From: a virus
IMG/VR virus record: IMGVR_UViG_3300034374_000731
Location: 1-29,634 of that record
Length of the DNA stretch: 29,634 nucleotides
Strand: one strand, 5' to 3'
Every line of letters begins with the position of its first letter. Position 1 is the first letter of the stretch. The notes under the pieces were generated by a model, which was given only the letters and a program-made list of their open reading frames with translations, was not told where the DNA came from and did not search any database. The position numbers were made by a program, and so were the translations under genes. Shown one piece after another: positions 259 to 29,336 of the stretch.

Positions 259-3200
259 TCGCCAGAAGCTAGACCTAGCTCAACCATATTAGCTATTGTT
301 CTCTTATACATTAAGATTTGGTCTTTTATTGGGTCTAGTCTAAGTTTTCTTTCTTTTGCAGTCAATCCAGGCATTTTACGTATAGTCTTAGCTTGCTCAT
401 TTAACTCATCTAAATCAGCTTTTAAAGTGTTGTAGTCCTTAATAACAATTGGACCTGCTGGGAACTGAGATAATATTTCAGAATATTTTATTGGGTTAGT
501 TTCTTTAAATAAGTTTATTTTTCTATTTAACTCATCCACTTTTCTAACTGCATCAGCATACTCTCTTTGTTCTATATTTGAATATTTACTTATAAAACTA
601 TCGAAAAACACAGTGTCTCGTTTAGGATCAAACTGCTTATCACCTTTTAAAGTCAATCCTAAACCATATAAATCATGAGCTACTCTACCCACTGCATCAC
701 CATAGTTGTTAGCAAAGAATGCAATAACGTTAGGAGACCAATCTATCGCTCCGTTTGACATCTCAGCTAAACCTATTGAGATGTCTTTATATAATTCTGC
801 TACATTATCACTACCACCGTATGCACTACCATATTTTCTAGTTTGTAATGGGTTATAAATATTTTGACCAAATGCATTCATATTCATAGTGTATTCAAAT
901 ATAGGTTTTGCTACACTAGGCATAGCAGTATCAAGAGCCCACTGAAATGGATGTTCTATAGGAGACATTCTTGAGAATGGTAGTGGCATGAAAGAATCAA
1001 GAGTAATGTTAGATATGTTAGCTATCATCTCTGACATACTATATTTATCTGCGCCACCATATGCCGCAAGCTGTGCTCCTATAGCTGCAAAGCCTCCAGG
1101 TCCAAAGCCCCAAGGTAATTGTAGTACATCACCCTTTTCAAATCCTGGTATCCAGCTTATATCAAATCTAGCAAATCGAGTCCAACGTGCTGGATCATCT
1201 TCTCTTGTTTTATTATCATCATCGTCACCTAACATAGCTGCCATATGCCAAACAGCGTAACCCATACCTACACCAGCAGCCGCCATACCATACGCAGCTT
1301 TTCTTCGCTTATCAAAATTTCTACTCCAGTTTTCTAATGCTTCTGGGTTACCTTTTATTATGTCAGGTAAGTTACTTTCAGCTACATCTTTTCTTTGTAA
1401 TGCAGCATCCATAGATTCAAAGGCTCTTACAATACCTACAGCACTTGGTCTAAAGAACATAAACCACGCACCCATGAAATCACCATATATACCTCTTTCT
1501 TCAAAGTTTGATAGTCGTTTTGCATATACTACTGATCTTTCTATTGCTGCTCTTTCAATGTCAGCTGGTATTTGTTTACCTGTTCTACCTGGAGCATTCT
1601 GCGTTAGATAGTTTTCTTTATGAGTCTGATATGCAGCTGCACGGGTAGTAAGTTCAAAAGTGCTCATCCATACATCAAAGAAATCTTTTACGGTTTGTTT
1701 ATTTTTAGCTATTCCTTTCTGACTTCTTGCATAATTTTCTTGAAGTCTTTCATATGCAGTCTCGATAGACAAGGCTTGAGAATATGAAATCATACCTCCG
1801 TTTTGTAAATACTCATACATACTTTCTGGTAGAGTTTGTCCTTTTGCTTTTTCTGACGCTACATATGCTTCTAGTTCTTTTATTCTACCTTTGGTATACA
1901 TGTTCATTACTTTAGCAACTCTTATAAACCCACCATTGGTAATAGTCTTAGCTATTCTTTGTAAGTAACCTCCCATATCTTTTATGCCTAGATCAGCACT
2001 AATATAAAATATGTTTGTTATAGCATCTCGAACAAAGTTTAAGGTTGCAAAAGGAGGATTGAATCTAGTATGTAATTGACCTAAGAATCCTGTCATTCTA
2101 TTCATGAAAGCTACAAATTGAGGATTATCTGCATAAGAACCTCTAATTGCTTCTACTAATTTTTCATCTTTTATTTCTATTACTGCAATACTACCGTCGT
2201 CTAGGAAATGTAAGACAGTATTTTTCTTTTCTATGTCTTTTTGTAACCCCTCATCATTTGTATATCGTTGTTCGTAAGAATATATATTTAAAACCTTTCC
2301 ATCTATAGCTTTACCTCTTTTTTGTTTACCTGTTATAGGGTCTGTATATTCTACAGTTTGAGTAACTGCATTATAGATAGATTGTGTATAATTAATTCTT
2401 CCAGCTCTTGCAGCGGCTCTAGACGCATCTACCACTACCTGAACTATTGGATCTGAAGTTTCTCCTTCATTACCTTCAAACGAACTTTCTAATTTTTTTA
2501 ATTCTCTTGATAGCCTACCACCTGTAGGATTATAAAAGCTTTCAGAAGTTGAATCATAATCCCAATTATTGCTTTTTTTAAATGGTATATAGTTCTTCCA
2601 TCCATAGAATTGAATTATATTAAGTGCTTGAGGACTAGCGTAGTTTGCTTCTTGGTTTAGTCTCAAAGTCTCTTTATTAATTACATCCATAGACTCTCTA
2701 AATTTATTTATTACATTATATAGTTCAGGATCACGGTTCTTTAAAATTTCAAACTTTTGTCTTTCGGCATTAGCATCTTCATGTGACATTTCAGAAACGT
2801 TGTACCTAGAATTAGTTATATCTGCTGGACCTCCTTTTTTATTGGAGAAATAACTTACCCCTGCTACACTATCAATAGATAATTTACCTGAAAATCTAGT
2901 ATTGGGATTAGCTAATCTTCTAAGCATATTTTTATATTTTTCTAAATCAGCTATTTTTTGTTTGCTATCCTTCCATACTTTAGTAGTGATAACATTCATT
3001 ATCTCCGCCCGTAGCTCAGAAGGACTTGTTGTAGTATTACCTTTTTTTATTATTTTTTCATTACTTAGAGGTACATCTAGTAGATATTTTACTTCTCTTC
3101 GTTCGCCTTCGTGTAAACCAGTAAATATTGTTTTTAGTATACCTTTTGCATCTTCTTCTGATAGACCTCGTTGTTCTTGTAGTTTTAAATATTCTCCTAA

Positions 3201-6200
3201 TGAATTAGAATAGTTATCCATAGAAGGTTGAAGTTGTTTCATGTAAAAATCAGATAAACCAAATGCTCTAGTTAGTTGGTCAAACACATTGTTAAACCCT
3301 TCTACACCAGCTAACAGTAAACCAGACCTTTCTAGTTTGTCTTGTAACTTTTTAATATCAATTGATCTATTTGCAAAATTTCTTATAGCATTAGTTAAAC
3401 CTTCATCGCCGTTCTTAAAGAATCTTGAGAATGAATTTTTTAACCTATTACCTGAACTTCTTGTTTGTTCTTTATATAATTTAATATTATCATTTTGAAT
3501 TTCATCTAAAGTTTTTCTAGGGCGTTGCTTACTTTTTATACGAACTATTTCTGATACAAGTTTTATATTGTCGTCGCTCATCGAAGACTTTTTATCTTCA
3601 TTAATACTAGGGTGTATTGAGTTTTCAGGATACATTGCTTTTAATAATGCACGCATACCTGGAGGTAGTGGCTTTCTAGACTTGTTTGTGTAGTTTCTAA
3701 ACCTTTGTTTTTTCTTCCACACCTCCATCCTTTCTGGTTCAAATTTTACATTAGGAGCCATACCTGCATTGAATAGTCTTTCTGATACTCTAAAAGTGTC
3801 TTTTAATAAAGTATTATCTATATTTCCTAACCCTAATAATTCTGATACCCATTCAGTAAAAGTGTCAAACATTGATTTAAATATATTTGATTCTTCTGGT
3901 AAACGGTACCCTTGAGACTCAATACTAGGTATTTCTGTTAAGAATTTTTGAAAACGTGGATTTGAAAATGCCTCTGCTATAAATTCAAAAGGATCAGAAA
4001 GCCCATATAGATCATATTCAATTTTTCCGTCTTTATCTGTTGTGTATTCACCTCTATTAAATGCTTCTCGTCTTGCTGATTCAAGCATTCTACTTAACGC
4101 CACCTGCTCTGAGTCAGTCATGATATTTATCATACCATCTACTGTAGCCGCATGAGTGAGTTCATGGACTAATACTTTTAGAGTCCGGTAAGTAGACTGA
4201 CCATTTGATTTTCTTAAAACAATTCGTTGATCGTATTTTGCTCCTGGTACATCATACTTAACAGGTACACTTACAACTTTACCAAAAATTTTTACTATCT
4301 CATTGTATGTTTTTCCAGAAGGAGTATAGAATCCAGCAGAGTTGCTTTTATCTTCTTTGGTTACTCTTCTAAATTTACTAAATATATTAATATATTCTTT
4401 TTCTGGTAGAACAACTGTTGATAGCGCCTTCATACCTGGAACTGATTTTAGTTTATTTAATATAGACCCTAAAGTTCCATATGCACCAATGTTATTGTTA
4501 ATTCTTTGTACTTCTTGTGTATCACCGCTTGCCTTAGCTTCTTCTAATTGAGCCATTAATAAATCTATTACAGAACTTATATAATTTTCTAATTCTTTTA
4601 TAAGTCCAACAGTATCATTTTCATTCTTTCTTATTAAATACTGAACATCATTTTCTGAACCGTCAGAGAAGGCATCCTCAATAGTTTTTACTACATCTTG
4701 TTCATCACCTCTGCTTTCAAATGCTTCGTTTATAGCTACGTTGAATGGATTAACTGCCGCTGGTATTTCATTTATAATATCTATAGCTGAATCTATATCT
4801 GAGTCTATGCTCATCTCATCTATGGCTTTGTTTATAGCTGCTTGGTCAAGCTTAATATTTTCTTCTTGTATTTTATTTTTTGCAGTTTTTTTAAGTTTGT
4901 CTTTTATCTTTTTAAGTTCTTGTTTGTCTTTTGCTTGATTTACTGCTTCGGCTAACAAGGTTTGTTCTAAATCATCTATTTCAGTTACTAGGTCTCTAGC
5001 TTCTTGAAGCAAGTCTTTATTGTCTTGTTGATTAGCAAGTTTATCAGTATAGTCACCACCTCTTTTAAACATAGACTTATACTGACCAATGTCATTTTTT
5101 ATATCAGCTATTGAGTTATATCTACTATCTCTTGAAATATAATCAGCTACTATAGCGGAGTTAATAAATTCATCTCTAATCTTTTTACGACGTGCTTTAT
5201 CTTTTTTATCTACGTTCTGACCAGAACCAAACGTTGATGGAGTAGATTGAGAATCTGCTGCTTCCTCAAAGATATAATCTCCTATAGCTCTTCTTATAAC
5301 TTGATCCATACTTGTTGCTCCTACGAAAGGAGCATCTACACCTTCTACACTTCCTGTTTTCAAGAATGTAGGTATAGTTCTTAATTTTAGTGATTTAAGT
5401 TTGTTTACAAAGTCAGGATAATCTTTTATTCTACTTGCATATGCATCAAACTTCGCTGCTCTTTTAGCTCTTGTCTTTATCTCTAGAGCAGGTGTAGATG
5501 CTTGACCTTGATTAGCTGCTTTCTTTGTATATTCATTAGCTATTTTTTCAAAATTCTTTTTGTCACTATTTAACACATCAAACTGTGCTTTAGTTAGTTT
5601 CTTTCTTAAAACAGCTTCTACTGATTCAGGAGCTACTGTCTCGCCAAAAGCTAGAGGATTAGAAGTTTTGTTAAGGTTTCGCCCTTTATCTCTAAGTAAA
5701 AAGTCTGTTACAGTTGATACATCAGTATTAGGAAGAGTAGATTTTTGTCTAACTGTATATGCAATTGTCTGTCCACCAACTGATTCTTCATGATTAATAT
5801 AGTAGTCATCTAAGTTATTATTAGTTACAAACTCTGATATGCTAGTAAGATTAGATGAGGCGTATAAAGGTAGAGCATTTTCTTGGTCAGTAGGATTAGA
5901 TTCTGTATCTACTACTGTTTGGTCAAATAACTCATTAGAATCTCTTTTGTTCTTTAGATAGGTATCAGCTGCTCTTCTGCCTTCTGTTTTAAGTATGTGA
6001 TTATATATTGCTTCTGATTCTGCTAGACCGTCTGGAGTTATACTGTATGGCTCTGCTTTTGAAAAGTCTAAGCTTTTGTTTAATACTATTTGTTCTTCTA
6101 AATATCTTTTTAGTCTTTGCTTAAATAATCCAGTTTCTCTTTCATTCCTAAGTGATTGAGTAGTAACTTCACCAAGATCTAACCGTTGTTGTATAGGGTC

Positions 6201-7979: not shown

Positions 7980-9581
7980 TTAGAAGTCCGTTGAATAAAC
8001 AGGTTGACCGCCTGCTGTTGTACCAGGGTTTACAGGCTGTCCACTTTGAGTTCTAGGAGATCGAGCAGATCTACCTAAAACGGCTTCTCTTGCTTCTTGC
8101 ATCATAACTCCTATTCTTTCATTAACCCTTGCCAGTGCTTTCTGTTTTTCTGGACCATCTTTCATACGTTCATAATTTTCTCGTTCGGTATATAACTTAC
8201 CTATACCCATTTCTTTTGCATATTGTAATATTTGAGCTTCAGATTTAATATTGTACCCGTAAGCAGTAGCAGATATCTCTTTACCTCTGAGTTCAACATC
8301 AGCTGCAAATTGAGTTTTAGCATTTTCAAGCTTCCTTCTCTCTTTTTCAAGCTGAACTTGATAATTTCTGTTTTCAGCTGCTTCCATACTATCAAAACCT
8401 TTAGTAGCAATAGCGACATCTTCGGCACGCTTGGCTCTTTGTATTTCACTATCAAGTGCAAATATTTTTTGATCTAAACTATCTATAGTATTTAACTCAT
8501 CAGCATATGATTGCAATCCTTCTACGCCACCCTTAGCTATGTTTTGTAAAGCGAACGGAGAGTCTCCAGCAGCCATAGATAAACCTGCCCTTGCAAGAGC
8601 CATGTAAGGAGCGTCTTCACGTCTTCGTTCTGCTTTACTTTCTAACTCTGCTAATCTAGTTTCTAGTTTAGGAGTAACTGTGTCTTCTCCTATAAATTCT
8701 TTAAATGCCGCTGCTCTTTCTTTACCATAAGCTTTAGGGTCATCATAGGTTAAACCAGTCGTGTCAAACTCTGGTGGGTTAAACCTTAGTCTGTCATCTG
8801 TAGTCTCTACGCCTGTATCAGGTGCTGTCGGTTGGTCTACTGCAGCTTGTTCCGTTGTTGAACCATCATCAGAGTCACCATTCATTAAACTATAAGCCCC
8901 TAGACCTGCGCCAGCTAAAGAAGTTTTAGGGTATTTTCTAAATATACTAGGTCCATATTTCGCTACATCATTTGTCACCTGTCCTTTTAGTCCCGTTGTT
9001 GCTAACGATGTGCCTGTAGAACCTGGCATTTTAGAGCTAAAAGTTCTACCAAGTAATCTATTAAGATATCCTAAACCTGCTCTACCTACTCCCATTAGAC
9101 CACCTAAAACATAACCTTCTGATCCATCTTCATATACTGGGTTTTCACCTTTTTTAATAGCCTTATCTCTAATTTCTTTTTCATCTACTTCACCGCCTTC
9201 TTCAAAAGCTATGATACCGCCACCAGCATAGTTCTGACCTACATTACCTGCAGGTAAAGCACCAACACCTGAGCTAGCCATCATTTCTGGAGTTATTTCT
9301 GGTTGTGGTTGAGGAGCACCCATACCTGTTTGAGGAGGTGCAGGTTGATTTTGGGCGACCATGTTACCAATACCCATAGGCATATTTTCAGTTACAAGTT
9401 GTTCAGCAATAGACGCAGGTTGTTCTTGCATTGCTTGAAACTTTTCTTCACTATCTTTACGTCGTTGTAACTCACTTAATGCTAAAAAGCTAGGTACTTC
9501 TCCTGTTGGGTTTTGTACATAATTTATAATAGCCTCTTTAGGCATTCCTTTTAGTCTGTCTTGTATCTGAATAATATTCAT
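7980..9581 (-). CDS. Internal virion protein, 533 aa (T7 gp15 position)
   Basis: This large structural protein has a conserved-looking N-terminus (RLKGMPKEAI, then NPTGEVPSFLALSELQRRK at 24-42), a Gln/Pro/Met-rich linker (about 50-100), the motif YAGGGIIAFEEGG (118-130), a Gly-rich hydrophobic segment (about 157-178) and a long charged coiled coil (about 300-500). It sits between the gp14-like gene and the giant gp16-like gene, the position of T7 gene 15, whose product forms part of the ejection channel through the cell envelope. No sequence similarity to T7 gp15 is claimed. The start has an AAGGG eight bases upstream. The GGIIxFxxGG motif recurs in the 621-aa protein of the same module, suggesting a shared assembly or packaging role. 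Confidence 0.65.
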   Translation of the reverse strand: MNIIQIQDRLKGMPKEAIINYVQNPTGEVPSFLALSELQRRKDSEEKFQAMQEQPASIAEQLVTENMPMGIGNMVAQNQPAPPQTGMGAPQPQPEITPEMMASSGVGALPAGNVGQNYAGGGIIAFEEGGEVDEKEIRDKAIKKGENPVYEDGSEGYVLGGLMGVGRAGLGYLNRLLGRTFSSKMPGSTGTSLATTGLKGQVTNDVAKYGPSIFRKYPKTSLAGAGLGAYSLMNGDSDDGSTTEQAAVDQPTAPDTGVETTDDRLRFNPPEFDTTGLTYDDPKAYGKERAAAFKEFIGEDTVTPKLETRLAELESKAERRREDAPYMALARAGLSMAAGDSPFALQNIAKGGVEGLQSYADELNTIDSLDQKIFALDSEIQRAKRAEDVAIATKGFDSMEAAENRNYQVQLEKERRKLENAKTQFAADVELRGKEISATAYGYNIKSEAQILQYAKEMGIGKLYTERENYERMKDGPEKQKALARVNERIGVMMQEAREAVLGRSARSPRTQSGQPVNPGTTAGGQPVYSTDF

Positions 9582-9583
9582 AT

Positions 9584-10735
9584 TTAACCCTTACCTAATA
9601 TGTTATATAGTCCTAGACCAGCTAGACCTAAACCGCCGATCTGAGATGCAAGGCTTGGAGCTGGAGCATATTGTACTTGAGTTGAACCTAAAGCTCCCGC
9701 ATTACCACGAAGAATATTTGATTGATATTCGAGTAGATTGCGTTGATAATTTTGTTCTTCTTGGAACTGTTGATAAGCTAAGTTAAGTTGTTCTTGTTCT
9801 AATGCTTGTTTTTCACCAGCTGTTGCAGCTTGTGCTTTTAATCTTTCTAAGTTAGCCATCTGCTCTGTAGCACTTAATGCGCCTGTTGCCTTACCTGTTT
9901 CAAGACCCGTTTGTAATCCCGCCAAACCAATATCTTTACCAATCCCAGCTTGAAACTGTTCTCCTTGTTGACCTAGTTCAGCTGCTTGTAATCCCGATTG
10001 TATATTAGTTTGTTGCGCTTGCAACTGCCTTGCTTGATCAGCTTGGAACGCTTGTTGAGCTTGTTGGAAAGCTTTTGATCCACCTTCAGCTTGTATTTTA
10101 TTTAGTAAATCTTGAGTTGCACGATCTTGTTCAGTTTGCATTAATGCTTGTCTAGCACCACCAAAAGTACCTCTTCCAATAGCGCCCATAGAAGCGCCTG
10201 CTCTTTGAATATTTGCTTGTCTTAATGCTTCTTGTTTTTGTACATCAACAACAGCTTGTGTATAAGGGTCCATATATTGTTGAGCTGCACCAGTATCAAA
10301 AGTGCCTGTAGTCGCTGTACCTGGAGTGTATTGTGTTGGGTCATAATTAAAAGCTTGATTTAAGCCTGTAGCACCAGCATACCCTGCCTGACTACCGACT
10401 GTACCTAAAGTACCTGCAGCAGTTTGAAAGCCTTCAGGCGTGGTCATTCCTAAAGCTTCTTGTTGGACTTGCTGTTGCTCAGGAGTAAATTCGGCTAGTC
10501 TTTCATCTTCATAGGGTACAAATTTTTTCATTCCGATAACTTTACCACTACTATCGGTTTTATATACTTGTTTACCAGACTGTTTTAATAGTTCTTGATA
10601 AAAAGGTTTTGCGTATTCAGGTAAGTTAGTAGAATATGACGTAGACTGCTGACTGCCACCGCCGCCGCCTTTACCTCCACCCCAAAAGGTACAGTATTCA
10701 ACTGCAAAGGTTAATAATTTCCATAAATTAAACAT
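9584..10735 (-). CDS. Internal virion protein, Ala/Gln-rich, 383 aa (T7 gp14 position)
   Basis: The N-terminus is hydrophobic (MFNLWKLLTFAVEYCTFW), followed by a poly-Gly/Ser linker (19-29). Residues about 150-345 form a long Ala/Gln-rich helical region with QQYMDPYTQAVVDVQKQEA and many Q-A-Q repeats. The C-terminus is a Gly/Leu hydrophobic segment (about 362-383). Two hydrophobic ends around a helical body suit a protein that is stored in the capsid and inserts into the host outer membrane, as T7 gp14 does. The order GNAT-like, this protein, 533-aa protein, giant protein parallels T7 13-14-15-16. A GGAG precedes the ATG. The internal-virion role is inferred from order and composition. Confidence 0.65.
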   Translation of the reverse strand: MFNLWKLLTFAVEYCTFWGGGKGGGGGSQQSTSYSTNLPEYAKPFYQELLKQSGKQVYKTDSSGKVIGMKKFVPYEDERLAEFTPEQQQVQQEALGMTTPEGFQTAAGTLGTVGSQAGYAGATGLNQAFNYDPTQYTPGTATTGTFDTGAAQQYMDPYTQAVVDVQKQEALRQANIQRAGASMGAIGRGTFGGARQALMQTEQDRATQDLLNKIQAEGGSKAFQQAQQAFQADQARQLQAQQTNIQSGLQAAELGQQGEQFQAGIGKDIGLAGLQTGLETGKATGALSATEQMANLERLKAQAATAGEKQALEQEQLNLAYQQFQEEQNYQRNLLEYQSNILRGNAGALGSTQVQYAPAPSLASQIGGLGLAGLGLYNILGKG

Positions 10736-17451: not shown

Positions 17452-19326
17452 TTATGATGCTGTCCCAAAATAATAGCCTTCTGGTTGGTCGGTTGTTATC
17501 GTTGAAGGGAAAGTTCTACCTTGTCCATATATTAACCGTACTGCTCCACCAGCACCAGCACCTGATGATGAGCTATCATTACCACCTCCACCGCCACCAT
17601 ATGAATTACCAAACCCACCGTTCCATGCTTTTCCTGAACCAGTACCTGCACCTGTAGCAATAAACCCAGCACCCACTTCATTAGCAGGAGCTCCAACTGT
17701 GGTCCAACTAGTATCGAGAGCATTTCTAACGTTACGATATTGATTAACTGATATTCCTGTAGCAACTGTATTACCTGTTGAATCGTGAGTGCCTCCGCGC
17801 CATCCTCCAATACCATCAGCAAATGAACCTACAGAAACTGAAGATGCAGTCACAGATGTGCTTATAGTATAAGTTCCTACTCCGCCAGTACCTGTACCTA
17901 ATGCAGTGATATAGGTTCCTAAAGGAATTGCTCCGCCTGAACCCGCAACGGTTCTATTAGCACTGTTATCATAATCTGTAGCAACTGAGTCATCAAATAT
18001 ATAGCTTCCTACTTTTAAGTTGCCTACAGAAGTTACAGAAGTTACAGTCATAGTTGTACCAGAAAAATTAGCTACTACAATATTACTAGAGCCTCCCATA
18101 CCGCCCCCTCTGTATGAGGCTGGAGGATTTGCTCCTGACCTTCCTTCTCCGTATATACCTACGCCGCCACCGCCTCCGCCTCGGTCGCCAGAACCAGAAC
18201 CATTACCACCGGCACCACCTGAATTACTGCCTCCATTACCATCATATCCAGCAGCACCACCACCGCTACCAGCAGTAGAAGCATCAGTACTTCTTCTATC
18301 GGCGCCATATCCTCCACCATCTCCGATATAAACACCGCCCATACAGGTTCTTGATGGAGAATAATCTCCTCCATAATTTACATTGTTATCTCCAGAATCG
18401 CCGCCACCACCCCTTACTAGTGTGGTTCCTTTCCAAACATAAGATGCATAATACGTTGCTGTAATAGTAGTGCCGTCGGTTATAGATGACAATGCCGTAA
18501 TTTTAACTGTACCTGTACCAGGGTCTGCTACCGAATTACCATCAGCAGTGGCTGAAAAAGTTGTTCCAGGATTGCTATTAGCCGCGCCAAACTGAGTAAA
18601 ATCAGTAGTTCCTGTAGTCTCAATAGTATACTGAAGGTCATCATTCGGTGCTTTTTGTATACGAGAAACAGGGTAAATTAATTTAACTCTAAAAGCCCTT
18701 GCTGAAACAGCGCTAATAACTTCAAATTCACCACAACACGGTTTATATGTACATTCTATTACTACAGTATCTCCAACTTGAAAGGTATGGTCTGAATTTG
18801 TTGTAAACCATGCTTCTGTATATCCTGATATTTGACGAATAGTAATATTAGTGAGAGTTCCGGTTAGTCTAACTGGAGCTGTGTCTGAAATAATAAACTG
18901 ACTTCCCGTAGCATCGTTAGCTGGATAAGTAAAATACTCCCTATTTCCACCGTAACCAACGTAAACATAGTATGTAGTACCGGGAGTTACACTTATATTA
19001 TTTTTATAGCCAAGACCGCCGCCACCTCCACCAGGTCCGCCTCCACCACTACCGGCACCATAACCTCCACCACCTACACAAACAGTAGATATGCTTGTTA
19101 CCTCATCTGGGCATACCCATGTATGTAGACCTGGACTTGTAAAAGCTTGTTGTCCATAATAGGTATAAAACCGATTATAAAAATCAGAAAATGCTATAGC
19201 TCCTGAAGCTTTATCTCCAAGACTTCTTACATTAGCATCATTCATGCTAATCTGTGCCGTAGCTGTATAATCTAACTCAACATTAGCCTGACTTAACGAC
19301 ACTTGTCCTGATGCGGGCATTGTCAT
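17452..19326 (-). CDS. Large glycine-rich tail fibre/adhesin, 624 aa
   Basis: The N-terminus (MPASGQVSLSQANVEL, then SLGDKASGAIAFSDFYNR) is a block I know from phage fibre proteins and may attach the fibre. Next come FTSPGLHTWVCPDEVTS and a first Gly-rich run (about 84-106), strand-rich spacers, a second long Gly/Ser/Asn-rich region (about 306-410), and a third (about 570-595) ending GGAVRLIYGQGRTFPST. Gly-rich layers of this sort resemble the polyglycine-II adhesin tips of T-even gp38 proteins. The role is therefore binding of the host surface. An AAGG lies about 13 bases before the first of two close ATGs. It lies between the S74 fibre and the lysis genes. Confidence 0.75.
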   Translation of the reverse strand: MTMPASGQVSLSQANVELDYTATAQISMNDANVRSLGDKASGAIAFSDFYNRFYTYYGQQAFTSPGLHTWVCPDEVTSISTVCVGGGGYGAGSGGGGPGGGGGGLGYKNNISVTPGTTYYVYVGYGGNREYFTYPANDATGSQFIISDTAPVRLTGTLTNITIRQISGYTEAWFTTNSDHTFQVGDTVVIECTYKPCCGEFEVISAVSARAFRVKLIYPVSRIQKAPNDDLQYTIETTGTTDFTQFGAANSNPGTTFSATADGNSVADPGTGTVKITALSSITDGTTITATYYASYVWKGTTLVRGGGGDSGDNNVNYGGDYSPSRTCMGGVYIGDGGGYGADRRSTDASTAGSGGGAAGYDGNGGSNSGGAGGNGSGSGDRGGGGGGVGIYGEGRSGANPPASYRGGGMGGSSNIVVANFSGTTMTVTSVTSVGNLKVGSYIFDDSVATDYDNSANRTVAGSGGAIPLGTYITALGTGTGGVGTYTISTSVTASSVSVGSFADGIGGWRGGTHDSTGNTVATGISVNQYRNVRNALDTSWTTVGAPANEVGAGFIATGAGTGSGKAWNGGFGNSYGGGGGGNDSSSSGAGAGGAVRLIYGQGRTFPSTITTDQPEGYYFGTAS

Positions 19327-19328
19327 AA

Positions 19329-20510
19329 TTATTTACCTTTTAATTGTTCTATTTCAGCTTTTAGTTCTTTTATTGCTGCAAATGCAAGTGATACTAATTT
19401 TGGATAGTCAACTGCTAATGAGCCATCTTCTCTTTCTCTTACCGCTTCTGGAAGCACTGCTTTAACATCTTGTGCAATAACACCTATATCATGTTTTTGA
19501 ACAAAGTAGCCGTCTTCACCGCCGTGGTCTTTAATGTAGTCAGCAGTCCAATCAAAGGTTTTACCGCCAATATGGTTTACTTTATCAAGAGCATTATCTA
19601 TATCTTTTACATTTTCTTTAAACTTAATATCAGATGAGTAATATGCAGTAATATTATTAGTAGCTCTAATTTCACCTGTAGTACCCGATGCTGCTGTACC
19701 GACACCGAATGAGTCAAATTGAACACCAGATGCAGTCCCTAAACCTAGACTTGTTCTTGCAGTGGCTCCTGATTCAACTACCCAATTAGTACCATCCCCT
19801 ACAATAAAGTTACTATCAGTTAAAGCTAGTCCTGATATATCGTCTAAACCGGCATTCCATGCTTGTACTTGAGAGCCTATAGAAACCCCTAAACTTGCTC
19901 TAGCAGTAGCTCCTGATTCAGCTACCCAATTAGCACCATCACCTACAATAAAATTACCATCAGTTACTGTTAATCCAGATATATCATCTAAACCAGCATC
20001 ATATGCTTGAACATCAACGCCTACTTCAACACCTAAATTCTGTGTAGCTCCCAAAGCTGTTGAAGCTCCTGTACCCCCTGAAGTTATAGGAGCAGGTCCA
20101 GTGAGATTTATACCAGTAATAGCATCAATAACATTAGTTCCATCTACAAATACTAAAAAAGCTTCTCCACTAGGTATATCTACCCCAGTACCAGCAGCAG
20201 TTTTGACTGTTACTGTATCAGCTAGATTATTATTGATAATGTATAACTTTTCAATTGTAGGTACTGTTAAGGTTCTTGCCCCTCCAGAAGTACCTGTTAA
20301 ATTTAATCTTAGGTTACGTGCAGCTTGAGAACTATTAGTGTTTGTTAGCGTTAAAGTTACATTTGACCCAGTAAATGAAACGTCAGCTGACCCAGTAATT
20401 GCTTCTTCTACTGCTGTGCCTAAGTTAATATTGGTAGTAGCTCCCCAAACACCTGACTGTTCACCCGTGCCGATAAGCTCAAATTTTAAATCTGAATATG
20501 TACTTGCCAT
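19329..20510 (-). CDS. Tail fibre with C-terminal S74 intramolecular chaperone
   Basis: This 393-aa fibre has an N-terminal strand-rich domain (SDLKFELIGTGEQSGVWG at 6-23, common in phage fibres), a GGTGAST element (145-151), two tandem 48-residue repeats (about 164-257) each with VQA(Y/W)(D/N)AGLDDISGL and NFIVGDG, and a C-terminal S74 peptidase/chaperone domain (about 292-393). The domain carries S293 and K298 in SDIKFK, the Ser-Lys pair that cuts the chaperone off after trimer folding, then DIGVIAQDV and LAVDYPKLVSLAFAAIKEL. Autocleavage before S293 would release about 101 residues and leave a mature fibre of about 292. This is the only fibre in the window with its own chaperone domain; two others have separate chaperone genes. 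Confidence 0.9.
   Translation of the reverse strand: MASTYSDLKFELIGTGEQSGVWGATTNINLGTAVEEAITGSADVSFTGSNVTLTLTNTNSSQAARNLRLNLTGTSGGARTLTVPTIEKLYIINNNLADTVTVKTAAGTGVDIPSGEAFLVFVDGTNVIDAITGINLTGPAPITSGGTGASTALGATQNLGVEVGVDVQAYDAGLDDISGLTVTDGNFIVGDGANWVAESGATARASLGVSIGSQVQAWNAGLDDISGLALTDSNFIVGDGTNWVVESGATARTSLGLGTASGVQFDSFGVGTAASGTTGEIRATNNITAYYSSDIKFKENVKDIDNALDKVNHIGGKTFDWTADYIKDHGGEDGYFVQKHDIGVIAQDVKAVLPEAVREREDGSLAVDYPKLVSLAFAAIKELKAEIEQLKGK
19740..20021 (-). repeat. Two tandem 48-residue (144-bp) repeats in the S74 fibre
   Basis: Residues 164-211 and 212-257 of the fibre repeat VQA(Y/W)(D/N)AGLDDISGL, NFIVGDG and ESGATAR(A/T)SLG. The DNA copies have diverged at third positions, so this is an old protein repeat and not a fresh duplication. 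Confidence 0.9.
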
Positions 20511-20535: not shown

Positions 20536-20742
20536 TTATCTTGTTTTGCCCGACATTGGAATGCTTGTAACATAGATACCTATGTGTCTTTTTTCGTCCC
20601 ATTGTTCGCCACAATCAGAACATGTACCAGACTCATATTCATGAGTATCTACAGCCATACCACAGTTAGAACATTCAAGGCCTACTTCATAAGCACATTC
20701 AACTGTTCCGTCTTCTTTTTTAGTTGCTTCAACTTTTATCAT
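20536..20742 (-). CDS. Small zinc-ribbon protein, 68 aa
   Basis: Two CxxC pairs, C24-C27 (CSNC) and C41-C44 (CSDC), sit 14 residues apart, the layout of a zinc ribbon. The rest is acidic with a short strand-rich end (HIGIYVTS). Another start would add six residues, but the ATG at 20742 overlaps the stop of the upstream repeat protein as ATGA and has GGAG ten bases upstream, so it is preferred. It lies among fibre genes. Its role is unknown: a structural zinc knuckle on the tail or a small regulator are both possible. Confidence 0.75.
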   Translation of the reverse strand: MIKVEATKKEDGTVECAYEVGLECSNCGMAVDTHEYESGTCSDCGEQWDEKRHIGIYVTSIPMSGKTR

Positions 20743-21719
20743 GCTGCTATCTCCGTCCATTCTGTTGTTTGTTCATCATTTACATCTGTCCATCCTGCTG
20801 ATTGAGACTCTGTTATATTAGTCCAACTAGCTGTCTGTGTATCTGTTATATCTGTCCAATTAGGTGTTTGAGCATCGTTTATATTACCCCAATTAGCTGT
20901 TTGGTTATCATTAATATCACTATATACAAGCACATTAACAGGCGGTACAAATGTAGTTCCATTAGCACTAACTCCGTTTACAAGAACTCCAGATTCAGCA
21001 ATAACTATTACATTACCAATCTGTGTAAATCCAGTAACCTTTGTTACAGGTATATAGTTATCTGATTCTGCTATCGCTATACCTAACTGAGTAGTTCCAG
21101 TGTTTCCAATAACATTAACTACAGCTTTAGATATGGTTACTACGGTGCCTGTTTGACCTGTAGCTTCAACACCGTTTGTTAATACTACTGCTTTAGCAAC
21201 TACTACTTCTTCACCTAACTGAGTAGTACCCACATTACCGGTTACATTTACTACTGCTTTAGCATCAACTACTACAGAGCCTGTCTCGCCTGTAGCTTCA
21301 TTACCTGTTACATTTACTACTGCTTTAGCATCAACTATTTCTTCGCCAAGTTGAGTTGTGCCTTCATTACCTGTTACATTAACTACCGCTTTAGATACAG
21401 TTGTTACAGTACCTGTTTGACCCGTTGCTTCATTGCCGGTTACATTAACTACAGCTTTAGATACTGTTGTTACACTGCCTGTTTGCCCTGTAGCTTCATT
21501 ACCGGTTACATTAACAATCGCTTTAGCATCAACTACTTCTTCGCCAAGCTGGGTAGAACCTTGAACGCCTATAGCATTAACAACAGCTTTAGCATCAAAA
21601 GTAACAGTACCTGTTTGACCTGTAGCTTCAACCCCAGTAACCGATACGGCAACGCTTACGCCTTCAGTTATGGCTAAACTGGAAAAGGGGACATCACTTA
21701 ACGGCCCAAAGCCAAACAT
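20739..21719 (-). CDS. Repeat-built putative tail/adhesin protein, 326 aa
   Basis: A short N-terminus (MFGFGPLSDVPFSSLAI) leads into about ten 22-residue repeats (25-244) of two alternating kinds: VNVTGNEATGQTGTV... and VNVTGNEGTTQLGEE.... A spacer follows, then five 11-residue repeats (268-322) with the pattern DIxDxQTxxWT, so that a Trp occurs every 11 residues. The first array should form an extended beta-solenoid or strand ladder; the second may form a Trp-stacked beta structure. From memory, both kinds of repeat occur in uncultured marine phages. It lies in the fibre cassette between a chaperone gene and a zinc-ribbon gene. An adhesion or fibre role is inferred. Confidence 0.7.
   Translation of the reverse strand: MFGFGPLSDVPFSSLAITEGVSVAVSVTGVEATGQTGTVTFDAKAVVNAIGVQGSTQLGEEVVDAKAIVNVTGNEATGQTGSVTTVSKAVVNVTGNEATGQTGTVTTVSKAVVNVTGNEGTTQLGEEIVDAKAVVNVTGNEATGETGSVVVDAKAVVNVTGNVGTTQLGEEVVVAKAVVLTNGVEATGQTGTVVTISKAVVNVIGNTGTTQLGIAIAESDNYIPVTKVTGFTQIGNVIVIAESGVLVNGVSANGTTFVPPVNVLVYSDINDNQTANWGNINDAQTPNWTDITDTQTASWTNITESQSAGWTDVNDEQTTEWTEIAA
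20754..20918 (-). repeat. Five 33-bp coding repeats (11 aa, one Trp each)
   Basis: The unit is (D/N)(I/V)xDxQ(T/S)xxW(T/G), repeated five times at the C-terminus of the 326-aa protein. At DNA level the copies share a gtttg/tctgt...attagtcca-like core with substitutions. Confidence 0.9.
20988..21647 (-). repeat. About ten 66-bp coding repeats (22 aa) of two types
   Basis: The units share AKA(V/I)VNVTGN and differ in the middle, being EATGQTGxV or GTTQLGEE. The two types alternate irregularly. The last two units (ending near VTGFTQIGNV) are diverged. Near-identical 66-bp units make this stretch prone to length change by recombination. Confidence 0.9.
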
Positions 21720-21729
21720 CTACGTTCTC

Positions 21730-22086
21730 CTATTCAGTTGGTTTTGTTGGCCAGATTACATTATCTGGAAACCCTTCTTGTTGCGGTATATCTAGTAACG
21801 CCTGTCTATAATCTAACCATGTTTGTTTTTGTTCTGCGGTAAATGATTCCCATCTCATAGGATTCATTGTATCAATCATATTTTTTATTTCTAAGTCTCT
21901 ACTTCTTCTGACTAGTTTTGCTTTGGTTGGGTCTGTCCAAGTTTCACCATTCCAAATCCAACCTATTTGGCCAATATCATTAGCTAAAACTTCTTCATTA
22001 TTTTTAGGGATATAATCTTCAACAGAGTCTACTATTACTCTATTAAGAACTATTTTTGTGTCTTTGTCTAAAATACAAATAATCAT
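21730..22086 (-). CDS. Tail fibre assembly chaperone, second copy (Phage_tail_APC type), 118 aa
   Basis: The C-terminal half has a charged helix (KAKLVRRSRDLEIKNMIDTM) and then WLDYRQALLDIPQQEGFPDN with a WPTKP ending, the pattern of the Phage_tail_APC family: WxxYRQxLRDIxxQEGFPxxVxWPxKP. The N-terminal half is a small strand-rich domain (MIICILDKDTKIVLNRVIV). Such proteins help trimeric fibres fold and are usually encoded next to the fibre they serve. It directly follows the 389-aa Gly-rich fibre gene (4-base gap), so that fibre is its likely client. It is paralogous in its C-terminus with the 149-aa protein at 23274-23723. Confidence 0.8.
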   Translation of the reverse strand: MIICILDKDTKIVLNRVIVDSVEDYIPKNNEEVLANDIGQIGWIWNGETWTDPTKAKLVRRSRDLEIKNMIDTMNPMRWESFTAEQKQTWLDYRQALLDIPQQEGFPDNVIWPTKPTE

Positions 22087-23732: not shown

Positions 23733-24362
23733 TTATAGTGTTCCAAAAGTTGATACATCAAAAGCCGCATCTTCAGCCCAGTATCTAATTTCATTTATAG
23801 TACCACTAAAGCTACTCATATACCCAGTTCCAAGGTCTGCTGCATTAGTATTAACTTCACCATACCCTTTACCTGCAGTACCATATATATTACTACCTGG
23901 AGATGAAGGCGTGTCTGTAGCTAATTCTATTAATTCATTAACACTTCCCTGACCACCTACTTGAACGTAAGCTTTTGCTGTTGTAGTTGAAACATCAACT
24001 GTAAAATAATAAGTGCAAAATGTTCCAGTATAGGCAGATATATCTACTTCAAAAAACGCTGTTAATGTATCATCAATGCTTTCCCAAGCTGTACTCCCAT
24101 CATATGCTCTAAATCTTAAAGTGTTACTATCAACACCGATAGATAATCCAGTGCCAGTTCCTCCTAAATCTATTAATATACCGTTATTTGACCCAACAGT
24201 TAAATCTATAGCAATTAAAGTGTCATATGGATTTGCAACGCCGCCCGCTGTTGAACTTGGAATAGTTGTTATGGTGAAATCAGGTGTTCCAAAGTCTGCT
24301 TCATAATTTTTAGGACTATTAGCCACTACAGCTGCTCTTAATCCATGTGCTAATATACTCAT
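23733..24362 (-). CDS. LamG/concanavalin-like adhesin, 209 aa
   Basis: After MSILAHGLRAAV the protein is strand-rich with TLIAIDLTVGSNNGILIDL, NTLRFRAYDGSTAWES, a central TYYFTVDVSTTTAKAYVQVG and a final GTINEIRYWAEDAAFDVSTF. The last block is the closing strand pattern of LamG-type jelly rolls (INEIRxWxxxxxxxxI). Such domains bind carbohydrates or proteins, so a receptor-binding role on the tail is likely. A longer frame starting at 24491 would overlap the upstream gene with implausible Cys/Trp-rich sequence; the ATG at 24362 forms a TAATG with the upstream stop and is chosen. Confidence 0.7.
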   Translation of the reverse strand: MSILAHGLRAAVVANSPKNYEADFGTPDFTITTIPSSTAGGVANPYDTLIAIDLTVGSNNGILIDLGGTGTGLSIGVDSNTLRFRAYDGSTAWESIDDTLTAFFEVDISAYTGTFCTYYFTVDVSTTTAKAYVQVGGQGSVNELIELATDTPSSPGSNIYGTAGKGYGEVNTNAADLGTGYMSSFSGTINEIRYWAEDAAFDVSTFGTL

Positions 24363-25495
24363 TAGCTTAAGTCTCCAACATAAGCAGCATAGGTTACTCC
24401 AGCTACTTTCCATAATTCTACTACTGTATAACCTGTTGTCGCTAGTGTAGGAGCAGAACCACCAATCCATTGGTCTACTAGAGATGTCCATGTAATGGTG
24501 TAAGCAGAGCCATCATCAATCATTAATGTTACGCTTTGACCTGCAGCTAAACTATCTGTTGGTGTTGAGTTGCCAGACAATGTCCATGTCTGTATATTGC
24601 CACTGTTTGCTGAAATAGCAGGGGTTGTTCCTGTCACTGCGACTACTGTCTCAAGGAATGATGTAGCACGAGTAATACCTGATACATCTAGTTTATAAGT
24701 AGGACTCGCAGTACCAATACCTACTCTGTTATTAGTAGAATCTACATAGAGTGTATCTGTGTCTACAGTGAGGTCAGCATTAATAGTTTGGTTAGCAGTG
24801 AATGTATTAGCAACATCATTCTTTGTTGTATCTGCATCATATGCTTGGACTGTAATTCCTATGTCAGCTGATGTAAGTGCGACTGTACCCGACCCAATAG
24901 CTAGAGCGTAAACTTGCCATGTAGTACCGTCATATAAAAACTGTATACTAATACCCTCTACATCACATGTTAAATCTTCAGCAGCCCCAACGATTGTAGA
25001 ACCATTTCTAGCTACGGTTAAATTATTAGTAGACCAATCGTCCCCATCAACTATAATTACTTGGTTACCTGTTGAAGGAGATGCTGGTAAAGTTACTGTA
25101 AAAGAACCGCCTGATGTATCCGCTATAACCCCATCATTAACAAGGGCAGTATAGTTTGCTGTTTTTAAAGTATAAGTTATGATGTCTGGAAGAACAACGC
25201 TTTTTCCAGCAGGATATGTTACGAATACTTCTTTAGTACCAGAACCAAAATTGACTAAACTTCCAGAATTAGAAGAAGATAAAACAGTATCTCGAGATAA
25301 AGTCGTACCTGATGCGGTATAAGTTCCAATGCCTACTTCCCAATCAGCTGCTAAAGCTATAGTATAATAAGTAGTATTGCCATCACCAATAACAGAAAAG
25401 TCATCATAGCCAGTTGCGGCTGGACCTAATGTAAATGTTCCGGTACCAGTACTAGTTGATGTAACCTTGACTCTATCTTTTAATACCAACGCCAT
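24362..25495 (-). CDS. Tail fibre protein, 377 aa
   Basis: Residues 4-100 are a strand-rich N-terminal domain (VLKDRVKVTSTSTGTGTFTL, then GSGTKEVFVTYPAG) of a kind found at the attachment end of marine phage fibres. Residues about 110-200 hold a beta domain with TANYTALVNDGVIADTSGGS and IQFLYDGTTWQVYA. Residues 210-243 are the linker shared with the 389-aa fibre. After it comes NNRVGIGTASPTYKLDVSG (255-273), a signature that usually leads to an S74 chaperone; here it leads instead to a different C-terminal domain ending VELWKVAGVTYAAYVGDL. The protein therefore looks like a recombined fibre that lost its chaperone and relies on the separate ones downstream. Confidence 0.78.
   Translation of the reverse strand: MALVLKDRVKVTSTSTGTGTFTLGPAATGYDDFSVIGDGNTTYYTIALAADWEVGIGTYTASGTTLSRDTVLSSSNSGSLVNFGSGTKEVFVTYPAGKSVVLPDIITYTLKTANYTALVNDGVIADTSGGSFTVTLPASPSTGNQVIIVDGDDWSTNNLTVARNGSTIVGAAEDLTCDVEGISIQFLYDGTTWQVYALAIGSGTVALTSADIGITVQAYDADTTKNDVANTFTANQTINADLTVDTDTLYVDSTNNRVGIGTASPTYKLDVSGITRATSFLETVVAVTGTTPAISANSGNIQTWTLSGNSTPTDSLAAGQSVTLMIDDGSAYTITWTSLVDQWIGGSAPTLATTGYTVVELWKVAGVTYAAYVGDLS
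24767..24868 (-). repeat. Fibre linker module, copy 1 (34 aa)
   Basis: This segment encodes residues 210-243 of the 377-aa fibre and matches 23114-23212 in the 389-aa fibre. The shared core is VQAYDADTTKNDVANTFT. The S74 fibre has a related VQAYDAG version. Confidence 0.85.
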
Positions 25496-27058: not shown

Positions 27059-27412
27059 CTAAGTTATTGTTATGGTAACCGTGCCAACCTGTCCGGTACC
27101 TTCCAAATCATCTTCAATATCAGGTATTGCTAGTCCATTATTTAAACCAACAGGATTCCACCCATATTGATAATCTCTTTGCTGTGTTAAGTTTAAATCA
27201 GGTCTAGGGTCTCTTACTGCTTGAGGGTCCTCTACCGGATACATACCTTGCATGTTTTGTGGGTGGTCTGGTTCCCAACATTCCTTACATACTTTAATCT
27301 CAGTATTAGTAGTTTTTATAGTTAACTTTTTTAATTCTTTTAACTTATACTGAAACCCACATCTATCACAATTTCCAATTGCGCGTTTACCAGCTGTAAA
27401 CTTACTAGCCAT
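27059..27412 (-). CDS. Zinc-ribbon structural-module protein, 117 aa
   Basis: An N-terminal zinc ribbon is clear: C15-C18 (CDRC) and C42-C45 (CKEC) with a WEPDHPQ after it. The segment MYPVEDPQAVRDPRPDLNL (57-75) and the strand-rich end complete a protein type I recognise from marine phage head-tail regions. It is placed between the gp4-like and adaptor genes. It may be a small virion part held together by zinc. No nuclease or DNA-binding motif is seen beyond the ribbon. Confidence 0.75.
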   Translation of the reverse strand: MASKFTAGKRAIGNCDRCGFQYKLKELKKLTIKTTNTEIKVCKECWEPDHPQNMQGMYPVEDPQAVRDPRPDLNLTQQRDYQYGWNPVGLNNGLAIPDIEDDLEGTGQVGTVTITIT

Positions 27413-27421
27413 GTTAAACCT

Positions 27422-28102
27422 TTACAAATATTGAGGACGAGGGACTAATCTTAAGTCTGCTTTTTCTCTATCCTCTGTAGAAGCCAATAACCATTGTTCT
27501 TCATACTCTTGTTTTAAAAATTGAATTCTATCAAAAGCCTGTGGCAATTTTAAACTTAAATAATACGCTAATCCTGCAACTAAACAAGGTAAGAATCTAA
27601 ATGGTATATCTTGTGTGTTAACACCATTACCTGCATCTTCCATTCTTCTTAAACGCCAATATTTGAATGTGTATGTATCATTATCTGGAAGAGGCCATAC
27701 ATTAATATTAGGTTGAGCTACTTGTCTATTTATCCAAACTTGTATAGGTCTACCTGTAGAGTTTTTGTTAGGAATCGTAGCATACGTAGGTGCAGAAATA
27801 CGTGTAATATTAATATCACTTTGTGACTGTCCTGTACCTGTTCTAATTACTTGTTCTAACAAATCTATAGTATCAGCAGGTAGGTTATATGTACCTGTGC
27901 CAGAAGTAAGACTTATTGCTCCTTCTTCTATAGTCCATAAATTTACTCCTCGATTTGCCCATTCTGCAGTTAATAAATTTAAACTACGTCTAGCAGTTCT
28001 TAAGTCATATCCAGTACGTAGCTCAGCACCGCATCTCTCAAATGCTTCTTCGACTATTTGATTTAAATCTAAGTTAAATGTTACTGTTCCTGAAGTTGCC
28101 AT
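27422..28102 (-). CDS. P22 gp4-like tail accessory / head-completion protein, 226 aa
   Basis: The first third is helical (LDLNQIVEEAFERCGAEL, then RRSLNLLTAEWANRGVNLW at 37-55), matching the LxxLLAEW..xG pattern of gp4-type head-completion proteins that sit between portal and tail. The rest has a strand-rich insert (GTGTYNLPADTIDLLEQVI, PNINVWPLPDNDTYTFKYW) and a helical C-terminus (AYYLSLKLPQAFDRIQFLKQ). In short-tailed phages this protein closes the filled head and takes the tail. The product stop is ten bases from the next gene start. Position next to the adaptor gene supports the call. Confidence 0.75.
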   Translation of the reverse strand: MATSGTVTFNLDLNQIVEEAFERCGAELRTGYDLRTARRSLNLLTAEWANRGVNLWTIEEGAISLTSGTGTYNLPADTIDLLEQVIRTGTGQSQSDINITRISAPTYATIPNKNSTGRPIQVWINRQVAQPNINVWPLPDNDTYTFKYWRLRRMEDAGNGVNTQDIPFRFLPCLVAGLAYYLSLKLPQAFDRIQFLKQEYEEQWLLASTEDREKADLRLVPRPQYL

Positions 28103-28380
28103 TATTTAGTCCTTCTTTTTAAAGGTGCTACTCTTCTTGGTTTACCTTTTGGCTGACCAAGACTTTTCTTTTGTGCTATCCGAGACTTCTTCTCAGCTGA
28201 TGTCATTTCACCCGAAGTTTTGGGGGTCTCGGTTGACACTCGTTTGCTAGGTCGGCAATACGGAGTACCTCGCGATTCCCCTTTCTGTCTACCGCACGGT
28301 TTGCCGGTCCTAACATCTTTCCAATCTTCTTTAAACCAGCGTTTAAGTGCAGCACCTTTAGCTGTCTTTTTAACTGCCAT
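28102..28380 (-). CDS. Small basic phage protein, 92 aa (LKxWFKExW family)
   Basis: The protein carries LKRWFKEDWKDVRTGKPCGR (12-31), then GESRGTPYCRPSKRVS and a Lys/Arg-rich tail. From memory this block appears in small proteins of marine phages and in proteins of giant eukaryotic viruses, often under a DUF name (DUF5872, as I remember it). The high positive charge and two Cys suggest nucleic acid binding or a small virion part. Its stop overlaps the start of the gp4-like gene (TAATG), and an AAGGA lies eight bases before its ATG. Function unknown. Confidence 0.75.
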   Translation of the reverse strand: MAVKKTAKGAALKRWFKEDWKDVRTGKPCGRQKGESRGTPYCRPSKRVSTETPKTSGEMTSAEKKSRIAQKKSLGQPKGKPRRVAPLKRRTK

Positions 28381-28547: not shown

Positions 28548-28909
28548 ACCATGCGACCCTTTGTTTTACCCTTCATACAGCATCCATCACCTCGGTGTTT
28601 TTTAACTTTGCCCCCTTTTTTCATACCTGGTCGAACAGGTGCAGGTTTTGGTGCAGGTCCTCTTGGGTTCATTCCCATACCACCTCGTGTTGGCATTGGT
28701 GTTGGCATTGGTGTTGGCATTGGTGTTGGAGCAGGTTTTGGTGCAGGTCCTCTTGGATTCATTCCCATACCACCTCGTGTTGGCATTGGTGTTGGTGCAG
28801 GTCTACCTTCAAACGCACTGCCGGTTCTTCTTGGTACGGGTGTTCCCGCTGTGCCTACTCGTGTTGGCATTGGTCTTGTCATGCCTGGTCTTGTTGGTCT
28901 TCTTCTCAT
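28544..28909 (-). CDS. Pro/Met/Arg repeat protein with GKTKGRMV tail, 121 aa
   Basis: The chosen ATG at 28907-28909 has AGGAG seven to eight bases upstream; a longer frame to 28981 would run far into the previous gene. The product is MRRRPTRPGM followed by a proline-rich body with PTPM repeats and a duplicated block (GGMGMNPRGPAPKPAP), so probably unfolded. The end is KKGGKVKKHRGDGCCMKGKT and then KGRMV. The last 14 or so residues match the end of the upstream 138-aa protein. No enzymatic fold is possible. It may be a flexible virion or DNA-binding protein. Confidence 0.75.
   Translation of the reverse strand: MRRRPTRPGMTRPMPTRVGTAGTPVPRRTGSAFEGRPAPTPMPTRGGMGMNPRGPAPKPAPTPMPTPMPTPMPTRGGMGMNPRGPAPKPAPVRPGMKKGGKVKKHRGDGCCMKGKTKGRMV
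28641..28795 (-). repeat. 65-bp duplication, 90 bp apart, one mismatch
   Basis: The copies lie at 28641-28705 and 28731-28795 and differ at one base (g at 28667, a at 28757). Both encode the GGMGMNPRGPAPKPAP block. Near identity shows a recent duplication or ongoing homogenisation. Confidence 0.93.
28690..28729 (-). repeat. 12-bp tandem repeat encoding PTPM
   Basis: The unit ttggcattggtg occurs three times in a row and partly a fourth, between the two copies of the 65-bp duplication. A 12-bp unit keeps the frame when copy number changes. Confidence 0.93.
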
Positions 28910-28919
28910 AATATACTCC

Positions 28920-29336
28920 TTAAACCATTCGTCCTTTAGTTTTACCTCGAACAGCACAGCCATCACGCTTAACCATGCCACCTTTTTTATAAGATTTAGA
29001 ACTACATGAACCGCCTTTTTTATAATTGTTCTTAGTCATGCCCATACCAATCTTACCACCTTTCTTTTTCATAACAGCAGCAGGATTTCCTTTTTTAGGA
29101 GCAGGTTTAACAGTTCTAGTTCTTTCAGGAGATGGGGCCCCTGCAATACTTAATCCTGCTTTTAGTAGAGCATTATTAACAGCCTTTTGCTTATCTGATT
29201 CTGTTAATTCTTCGTTAGGACCAAACGTCTCCATGTCTTCAGTAAGAATTTTTTTCATACGTTCTTTTTTAGCCACGTCCTTAATACGTTTTTTCTCGTC
29301 TTCAGGTTTAATTACTTTTTTGTTTTTGTCGCCCAT
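28920..29336 (-). CDS. Basic KKGG-rich protein with GKTKGRMV tail, 138 aa
   Basis: The first 60 residues are charged and helical (EKKRIKDVAKKERMKKILTE); the middle is PSPERTRTVKPAPKKG; the end has three KKGG elements (KKKGGKIG, NYKKGGSCS, SYKKGGMV) and closes RDGCAVRGKTKGRMV. That ending is nearly the same as in the next gene and is one I have met in marine podovirus proteins. The ATG has AGGAG upstream and forms TAATG with the previous stop. It may be a minor capsid-associated or DNA-binding protein; the function is unknown. Confidence 0.75.
   Translation of the reverse strand: MGDKNKKVIKPEDEKKRIKDVAKKERMKKILTEDMETFGPNEELTESDKQKAVNNALLKAGLSIAGAPSPERTRTVKPAPKKGNPAAVMKKKGGKIGMGMTKNNYKKGGSCSSKSYKKGGMVKRDGCAVRGKTKGRMV

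Follow-up and report, generated by a model that had tools for sequence, protein, structure and literature searches.

A modular repeat protein encoded in a phage tail-fibre gene cluster, a predicted tail appendage of an undescribed family

Overview

We analysed a viral record of 29,634 bases (the window, meaning the whole stretch of DNA), which encodes a 326-residue protein made almost wholly of repeats. This protein is a member of an undescribed family and is probably a virion tail appendage, that is, a fibre or adhesin component built of three modules, of a phage that we take to be a P22-like podovirus, in part from its neighbouring genes. The family architecture is modular, with an aromatic head, an exchangeable body of 20- or 22-residue repeats and a C-terminal Trp array, and the gene is encoded in the tail-fibre gene cluster. 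Its adjacency to a fibre gene, together with the gain and loss of repeats in close relatives, suggests that the product is probably a length-adjustable part of the putative host-attachment gear.

Repeat organization of the protein

The features of the gene are the following, all on the minus strand:

20739..21719, minus strand, whole ORF of the repeat protein, 326 residues (from the ORF list and the dN/dS against the orthologue in the relative L002)
21657..21719, minus strand, head, residues 1-21, starting MFGFGPLSDVPFSS, a form of the family head motif
20997..21656, minus strand, body of ten 22-residue units, residues 22-241, with TGxTG and TQLGEE types interspersed and the tenth unit divergent (repeat analysis)
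20931..20996, minus strand, decayed 22-residue unit and junction, residues 242-263, with low AF2 confidence from residue 252
20742..20930, minus strand, C-terminal array of 11-residue Trp units, residues 264-326, ending WTEIAA (repeat analysis)

The protein has the 326 residues originally predicted, and the stretch 20754-21647, in which the repeats were first noticed, corresponds to its residues 25-322. Arg, His and Cys are all absent. From the N-terminus, the short aromatic head is followed by the ten 22-residue units, the decayed unit, and then a Tyr and five Trp at 11-residue spacing (Tyr266, W277, W288, W299, W310 and W321), which agrees with the periodic Trp described at the outset. The uneven alternation of two 22-residue unit types was likewise recovered; along the protein the units run T E T T E T E T E, and a divergent one follows.

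Within residues 25-245 the identity is 0.51, 0.57 and 0.56 at lags of 22, 44 and 66 residues, the highest shuffled value at any lag being 0.26, and within residues 266-326 it is 0.44 and 0.49 at lags of 11 and 22 (highest shuffled value 0.35); the top lag was reached by none of 2000 shuffles, in the body and in the Trp array alike. At lag 11 the identity in the body is 0.052 (z -3.1), so that an 11-residue sub-period is absent from it, and the two architectures, which had been called nested, are in fact consecutive. The window units had also been described as near-identical at 66 bp, whereas they are diverged, with a median pair at 59% nucleotide and 55% amino acid identity, a best pair (the units at residues 66 and 88) at 84.8% and 91%, respectively, and a longest exact repeat in the gene of 31 nt. 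Near-identical units are present in relatives, where L029 and L009 contain exact repeats 113 and 109 nt long, respectively.

An undescribed family with exchangeable bodies

The family set was obtained from scans of viral contigs and three phage records, followed by a profile search across all frames, and contains 138 distinct complete proteins besides that of the window, with 166 to 1241 residues as stop-to-stop frames. One scan of the GTDB genome collection gave no relatives, and the same query gave 98 in viral contigs. Neither Pfam nor PHROGs has a model for the repeat family, and scanning 30 members yielded no more than scattered matches (E 5.5e-4 to 0.01); RICTOR_V (5.5e-4, below the cut-off), HicB-like and other weak profile matches were taken as chance matches due to repeat composition. 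The lack of a model means that such genes are read as 'hypothetical protein', which is the annotation of all three deposited relatives, and we did not recognise a description of the family in the open-licence PMC literature.

Near the N-terminus lies a head motif of aromatic residues spaced by five, Ar-[GAS]-x3-Ar-[SGA]-x3-Ar-[SGA], found in its strict form in 87 of the 138 distinct family proteins and in 0 of 2116 control ORFs (109/138 and 12/2116 for the relaxed form). Among the 87 strict cases, 50 are all Trp, 35 all Phe and 2 mixed. The window protein fails the strict motif because its head reads F-L-F at the aromatic positions. The motif also occurs mid-protein in L101, L108, L112 and L085 (around residue 160-180), and in L054 (74).

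The 22-residue body type of the window has the consensus KANVNVTGVEATGQLGTVTVTA, derived from 708 distinct units, and L019 carries a 20-residue version of it. Another 20-residue type is ETASGVDSISAAQTF-like (e.g. L021 and L030), and L020 has another 22-residue type. Across the 708 distinct units, positions 2/4/6, 9/11/15 and 18/20/22 show an alternation of hydrophobic or small residues, as expected for beta strands, and charge is rare at the hydrophobic positions with the exception of position 18, which is acidic in 16% of the units. The positional table took in only units with both Gly, so the invariance of these two residues is by construction. No parity is visible in the number of body units. 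In L005, a second ORF with family repeats (8871-9977) directly follows a 1237-residue repeat protein, so that a tandem pair of such genes exists in some phages.

The Trp array and the even-number rule

The units of the Trp array follow the pattern W-x2-[IV]-x-D-x-Q-[TS]-P-N, and the end of the array is fixed as WxxIAA: a C-terminal Trp is present in 139 distinct proteins among the 141 examined, and in 132 of them exactly five residues follow the last Trp. At least two strict Trp units occur in 97 ORFs, and 33 of these lie outside the 22-residue body profile while their arrays closely resemble the others in residue profile; among the 33, a few (e.g. L024 and L040) are diverged relatives of the window body, and the L046 frame 1190-3226 is unrelated. 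A like array terminates proteins with unrelated bodies.

The number of aromatic array positions per cluster is 2 (5 clusters), 3 (7), 4 (27), 6 (18) or 12 (1), and never 5 or 7. It is thus even in 51 of the 58 C-terminus clusters (144 distinct proteins), and all seven odd cases have three positions; the corresponding p-value of 1.2e-9 presumes independent clusters, which related phages are not, and the count leaves aside the body F/Y extensions (L063, L031, L109 and L151), the minus antisense ORF of L200, and the odd case L052 (3). The array indels between relatives, in L002/L004 and L185/L206, are both of 66 bp, i.e. two units. From the even counts and the two-unit indels we infer that the array works in pairs of 11-residue strands, each pair forming, e.g., a hairpin or a single coil. 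An alternation of two Trp-unit types within the pair is weak (identity 0.438 at lag 2 versus 0.393 at lag 1; 12 of 19 lineages).

The 2:1 ratio of 22 to 11 residues, to which attention had been drawn, holds insofar as Trp numbers are mostly even and the array indels span 22 residues, but the array is also found behind 20-residue bodies, and the match to the 22 of the body may therefore be incidental. The even-number rule itself is a concrete structural constraint for any model to explain.

Length variation among relatives

Whole-unit changes in copy number occur between near-identical genomes. L029 (210 residues) differs from L044 and L045 (166 residues) by one 132-bp, two-unit indel with zero mismatches elsewhere in the gene, and is 99.85% identical to L045 over 6434 bp, from inside the repeat gene downstream; an assembly collapse is possible for L029/L045, given the 113-nt exact repeat. 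It is less likely for L047 and L048 (62 and 39 nt), which differ by a 132-bp, two-unit indel and one mismatch and are 99.36% identical over 3106 bp, the upstream part being less alike (93.5-95%). Between L185 and L206, with flank identity of about 97%, 198 bp (three units) differ in the body and 66 bp (two Trp units) in the array, with 51 mismatches, and the 51-residue difference between L089 and L090 lies in a diverged 3' part, with no clean unit change. Lengths are equal in 50 of 60 close pairs at flank identity of at least 99%, 16 of 22 at 97-99%, 25 of 28 at 94-97% and 19 of 65 at 90-94%, where the pairs are not independent and some contigs were fetched twice. The suggestion that length varies between strains is therefore borne out in relatives, by 132-bp indels between near-identical flanks, but most close pairs have equal lengths and the window lineage showed no change in units: L001 has the same length, and L002, with 322 residues, has a 4-residue difference at the junction.

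Downstream of the repeat gene, at about 2771-4456, L029 matches L045 at shifts of about 430 bp, which suggests another large tandem repeat in the fibre cluster.

Gene neighbourhood and selection

The neighbouring features of the repeat gene in the window are:

19329..20510, minus strand, tail-fibre protein with a C-terminal Peptidase_S74 chaperone domain (PF13884, E 1.9e-16, and PHROG tail families)
20536..20760, minus strand, 74-residue zinc-ribbon-like ORF with a 22-bp overlap with the end of the repeat gene (sub-threshold zinc-ribbon matches)
21730..22086, minus strand, Phage_tail_APC protein of the tail-fibre assembly type, directly upstream (PF16778, E 1.9e-15)
27059..27412, minus strand, o117, a structural-cluster protein of 117 residues that ends in GTGQVGTVTITIT, a C-terminal tail similar to half a 22-residue unit

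The zinc-ribbon-like ORF, which is kept in place in the closest relatives, comes first downstream, followed by the S74 tail fibre; upstream are the Phage_tail_APC gene, a Gly_rich_2 gene and further structural genes. For 109 distinct relatives the downstream sequence is 1500 bp or longer; in 97 of them phmmer detected an S74 homologue on the same strand no further than 600 bp downstream, and in 12 it detected no adjacent one, and in seven of these twelve (L009, L029, L047, L048, L102, L109 and L115) tblastn placed it 16-17 bp downstream. Over 98 loci, tblastn gave an S74 homologue in 91, mostly 11-17 or about 232 bp downstream. On a wider scale, the repeat gene has on one side a gene with a match to phrog_2941/10775 (head and packaging / tail) and on the other a gene with a match to phrog_3287; a relative of this second gene bears the annotation 'phage stabilization protein' in MW202675. 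The L083 protein has its repeats joined to an N-terminal region that matches phrog_863 'tail fiber assembly' (E 9.1e-5), with a Gly_rich_2 match of 19.6 bits, below the cut-off of 24.3; this is the sole such fusion among the members scanned.

In family phages the homologues of o117 have a comparable C-terminal tail, [V/I]GTVTVTxT, like half a 22-residue unit, the resemblance being less clear in some phages with other bodies.

Relative to L002, the repeat protein has a dN/dS of 0.31, a sign of purifying selection and hence of a real protein. The Gly-rich gene at 17452-19326 (0.31) and the gene at 23733-24491 (0.35) have similar values, and those of S74 (0.15), the zinc ribbon (0.09) and the endolysin (0.06) are all below that of the repeat protein. 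By this measure, the repeat gene lies in a fast-evolving part of the cluster.

Three further observations concern the surrounding DNA. The S74 tail-fibre gene holds a 144-bp tandem repeat at 19744-20009 (1.8 copies, 84% matches). The minus-strand ORFs 23733-24491 and 24362-25495 overlap by 130 bp in different frames, and the matching ORFs differ in length in L002 and L003, so a start-site or frame problem is possible. A perfect 12-bp tandem repeat, with 3.6 copies of GTGTTGGCATTG, lies at 28687-28729, between the ORFs 28102-28380 and 28920-29336.

Structure prediction

With 30 sequences, AF2 gave a coil-like beta body, with pLDDT of about 54-75 over the repeats, 59 overall, and pTM 0.51, which suggests, at low confidence, that the body is a beta-solenoid; AF2 is reported to over-predict beta-solenoids for perfect repeats (PMC11795689). 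The Trp array is without structure in the full-length model, and modelling the array alone with 46 sequences gave no secondary structure (pLDDT 68.6, pTM 0.15), so the regular solenoid of stacked Trp that had been envisaged finds no counterpart in the models.

Foldseek gave no match in the PDB at E<=1e-3, and none at E<=10 for the Trp-array model; a separate match was one uncharacterised protein of an uncultured phage, A0A6J5P871 (3.5e-12). Sequence search of the PDB gave no relatives of the body, and for the array only a chance-level match (0.081). VIA-align ranks the curli subunit CsgA 8c50 (Z 21.5, rmsd 8.5 over 252 residues) first for the body model, and other matches include the secretion domain of EtpA (Z 18.8, rmsd 3.3 over 240), the tail fibre 9rkv of phage 7-7-1 (Z 12.1, rmsd 3.9 over 219 residues) and the left-handed helices of LpxD/GlmU (rmsd above 10).

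Possible function

No family or structure match in Pfam, PHROG or PDB names a function for the repeat protein, and its placement as a probable tail appendage draws on its gene neighbourhood, the fusion in L083, the shared Trp array, the strand-like alternation within the units, the dN/dS, and the finding of relatives in viral contigs but not in the one GTDB scan. In our proposal, the short aromatic-glycine head probably docks the protein on the tail, the 20- or 22-residue beta-repeat body would form an elongated rod whose length is set by the number of units, and the C-terminal Trp array, made of pairs of 11-residue strands ending in WxxIAA, may be the tip or a second docking surface. The number of units, and thus the length, would then have a putative effect on host attachment. 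A ruler, or a tuning of host range by unit number, as first suggested, is attractive as a hypothesis.

Alternatively, the repeats could form a fibre that decorates the capsid or head and is no part of the tail. This would agree with a gene lying between genes that match head-and-packaging PHROGs, and with the half-unit-like tail of the structural-cluster protein o117. However, the genes nearest to it are of tail-fibre, tail-fibre-assembly and S74 types, and in L083 the repeats are joined to a putative tail-type domain, which makes the head location rather improbable in our view. If the solenoid were an AF2 artefact, the protein could be an intrinsically disordered spacer or tether in which the unit number sets the tether length only, as the low pLDDT, the Trp array with no predicted structure and the AF2 bias described in PMC11795689 would allow. 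We consider such a tether unlikely, since the 708 distinct units show a strong alternation of V/I/L/A and polar residues and fixed Gly corners (Gly being required by the selection of units).

A curli-like amyloid subunit that the infected host would secrete, as described for some HTVC023P-type pelagiphages, was suggested by CsgA as the top VIA-align match and by HTVC023P itself having a weak relative of the repeat protein; phages of this type can carry a curli secretion system (PMC9599517). This fold match is weak, given its large rmsd and the low confidence of the model. The curlin repeat PF07012 was found in none of 30 records, among them the window and HTVC023P, with a positive E. coli control; CsgG (PF03783) was also found in 0 of 30 records, many of which, perhaps the window too, are fragments, with controls positive in 4; and the start MFGFGPLSDVPFSS, judged by eye, is unlike a Sec signal. 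The two profile results on these 30 records led us to reject the amyloid reading, which is very improbable.

Returning to the tail appendage, a bolder picture, doubtful as a whole, is that of a widespread undescribed appendage class in which interchangeable beta-repeat rods are joined at one end to a constant aromatic dock, either all Phe or all Trp, and at the other to a Trp tip that gains strands only in pairs. Length would be quantised in 22-residue steps and, differing between near-identical phages, would provide a length-based adjustment of attachment, and o117 might attach to the rod through a donated strand resembling half a unit.

The family is frequent in uncultivated phage contigs and has no model in Pfam or PHROGs. 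As an attachment part, if it is one, it would offer a readable marker of receptor-module diversity, and the length variants of near-identical phages would be natural test pairs for appendage length versus infection.

Comparison with known systems

The curli subunits CsgA and CsgB have strand-turn-strand repeats of about 22 residues, with a Gln/Asn ladder. The repeat protein resembles them in its repeat length and in the VIA-align of its model, topped by CsgA, and differs in having conserved Gly instead of the ladder, the curlin profile and CsgG being unmatched in the 30 records. The long tail fibre of the Agrobacterium phage 7-7-1 (9rkv), as described in PMC12796354, has a beta-helical middle section like the modelled body and, unlike the repeat protein, is a trimer with a jelly-roll tip; the PDB sequence search detected no sequence relation between the body and 9rkv.

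Pelagiphage tail fibres with repeat shafts, as reported in PMC3909814, and S74-bearing fibres share with the repeat protein a like gene neighbourhood and a fast-evolving module, and in the former the repeat pattern of the shaft is specific to each phage, as here. In contrast to tail fibres, the repeat protein is outside Pfam and PHROGs, lacks both a T7-type tail-fibre N-terminal domain and an internal S74, and has exchangeable repeat bodies and a Trp array. The tandem BACON repeats of crAss-like phages are also alike in lying beside tail genes, in their origin by duplication and in their proposed role in host binding (PMC6949934); BACON domains are Ig-like, whereas the units of the repeat protein have 20-22 residues. 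None of the 30 members matched BACON or Ig-like Pfam families at E<=0.01, and, in contrast to the BACON repeats, the copy number of the repeat protein differs between near-identical phages.
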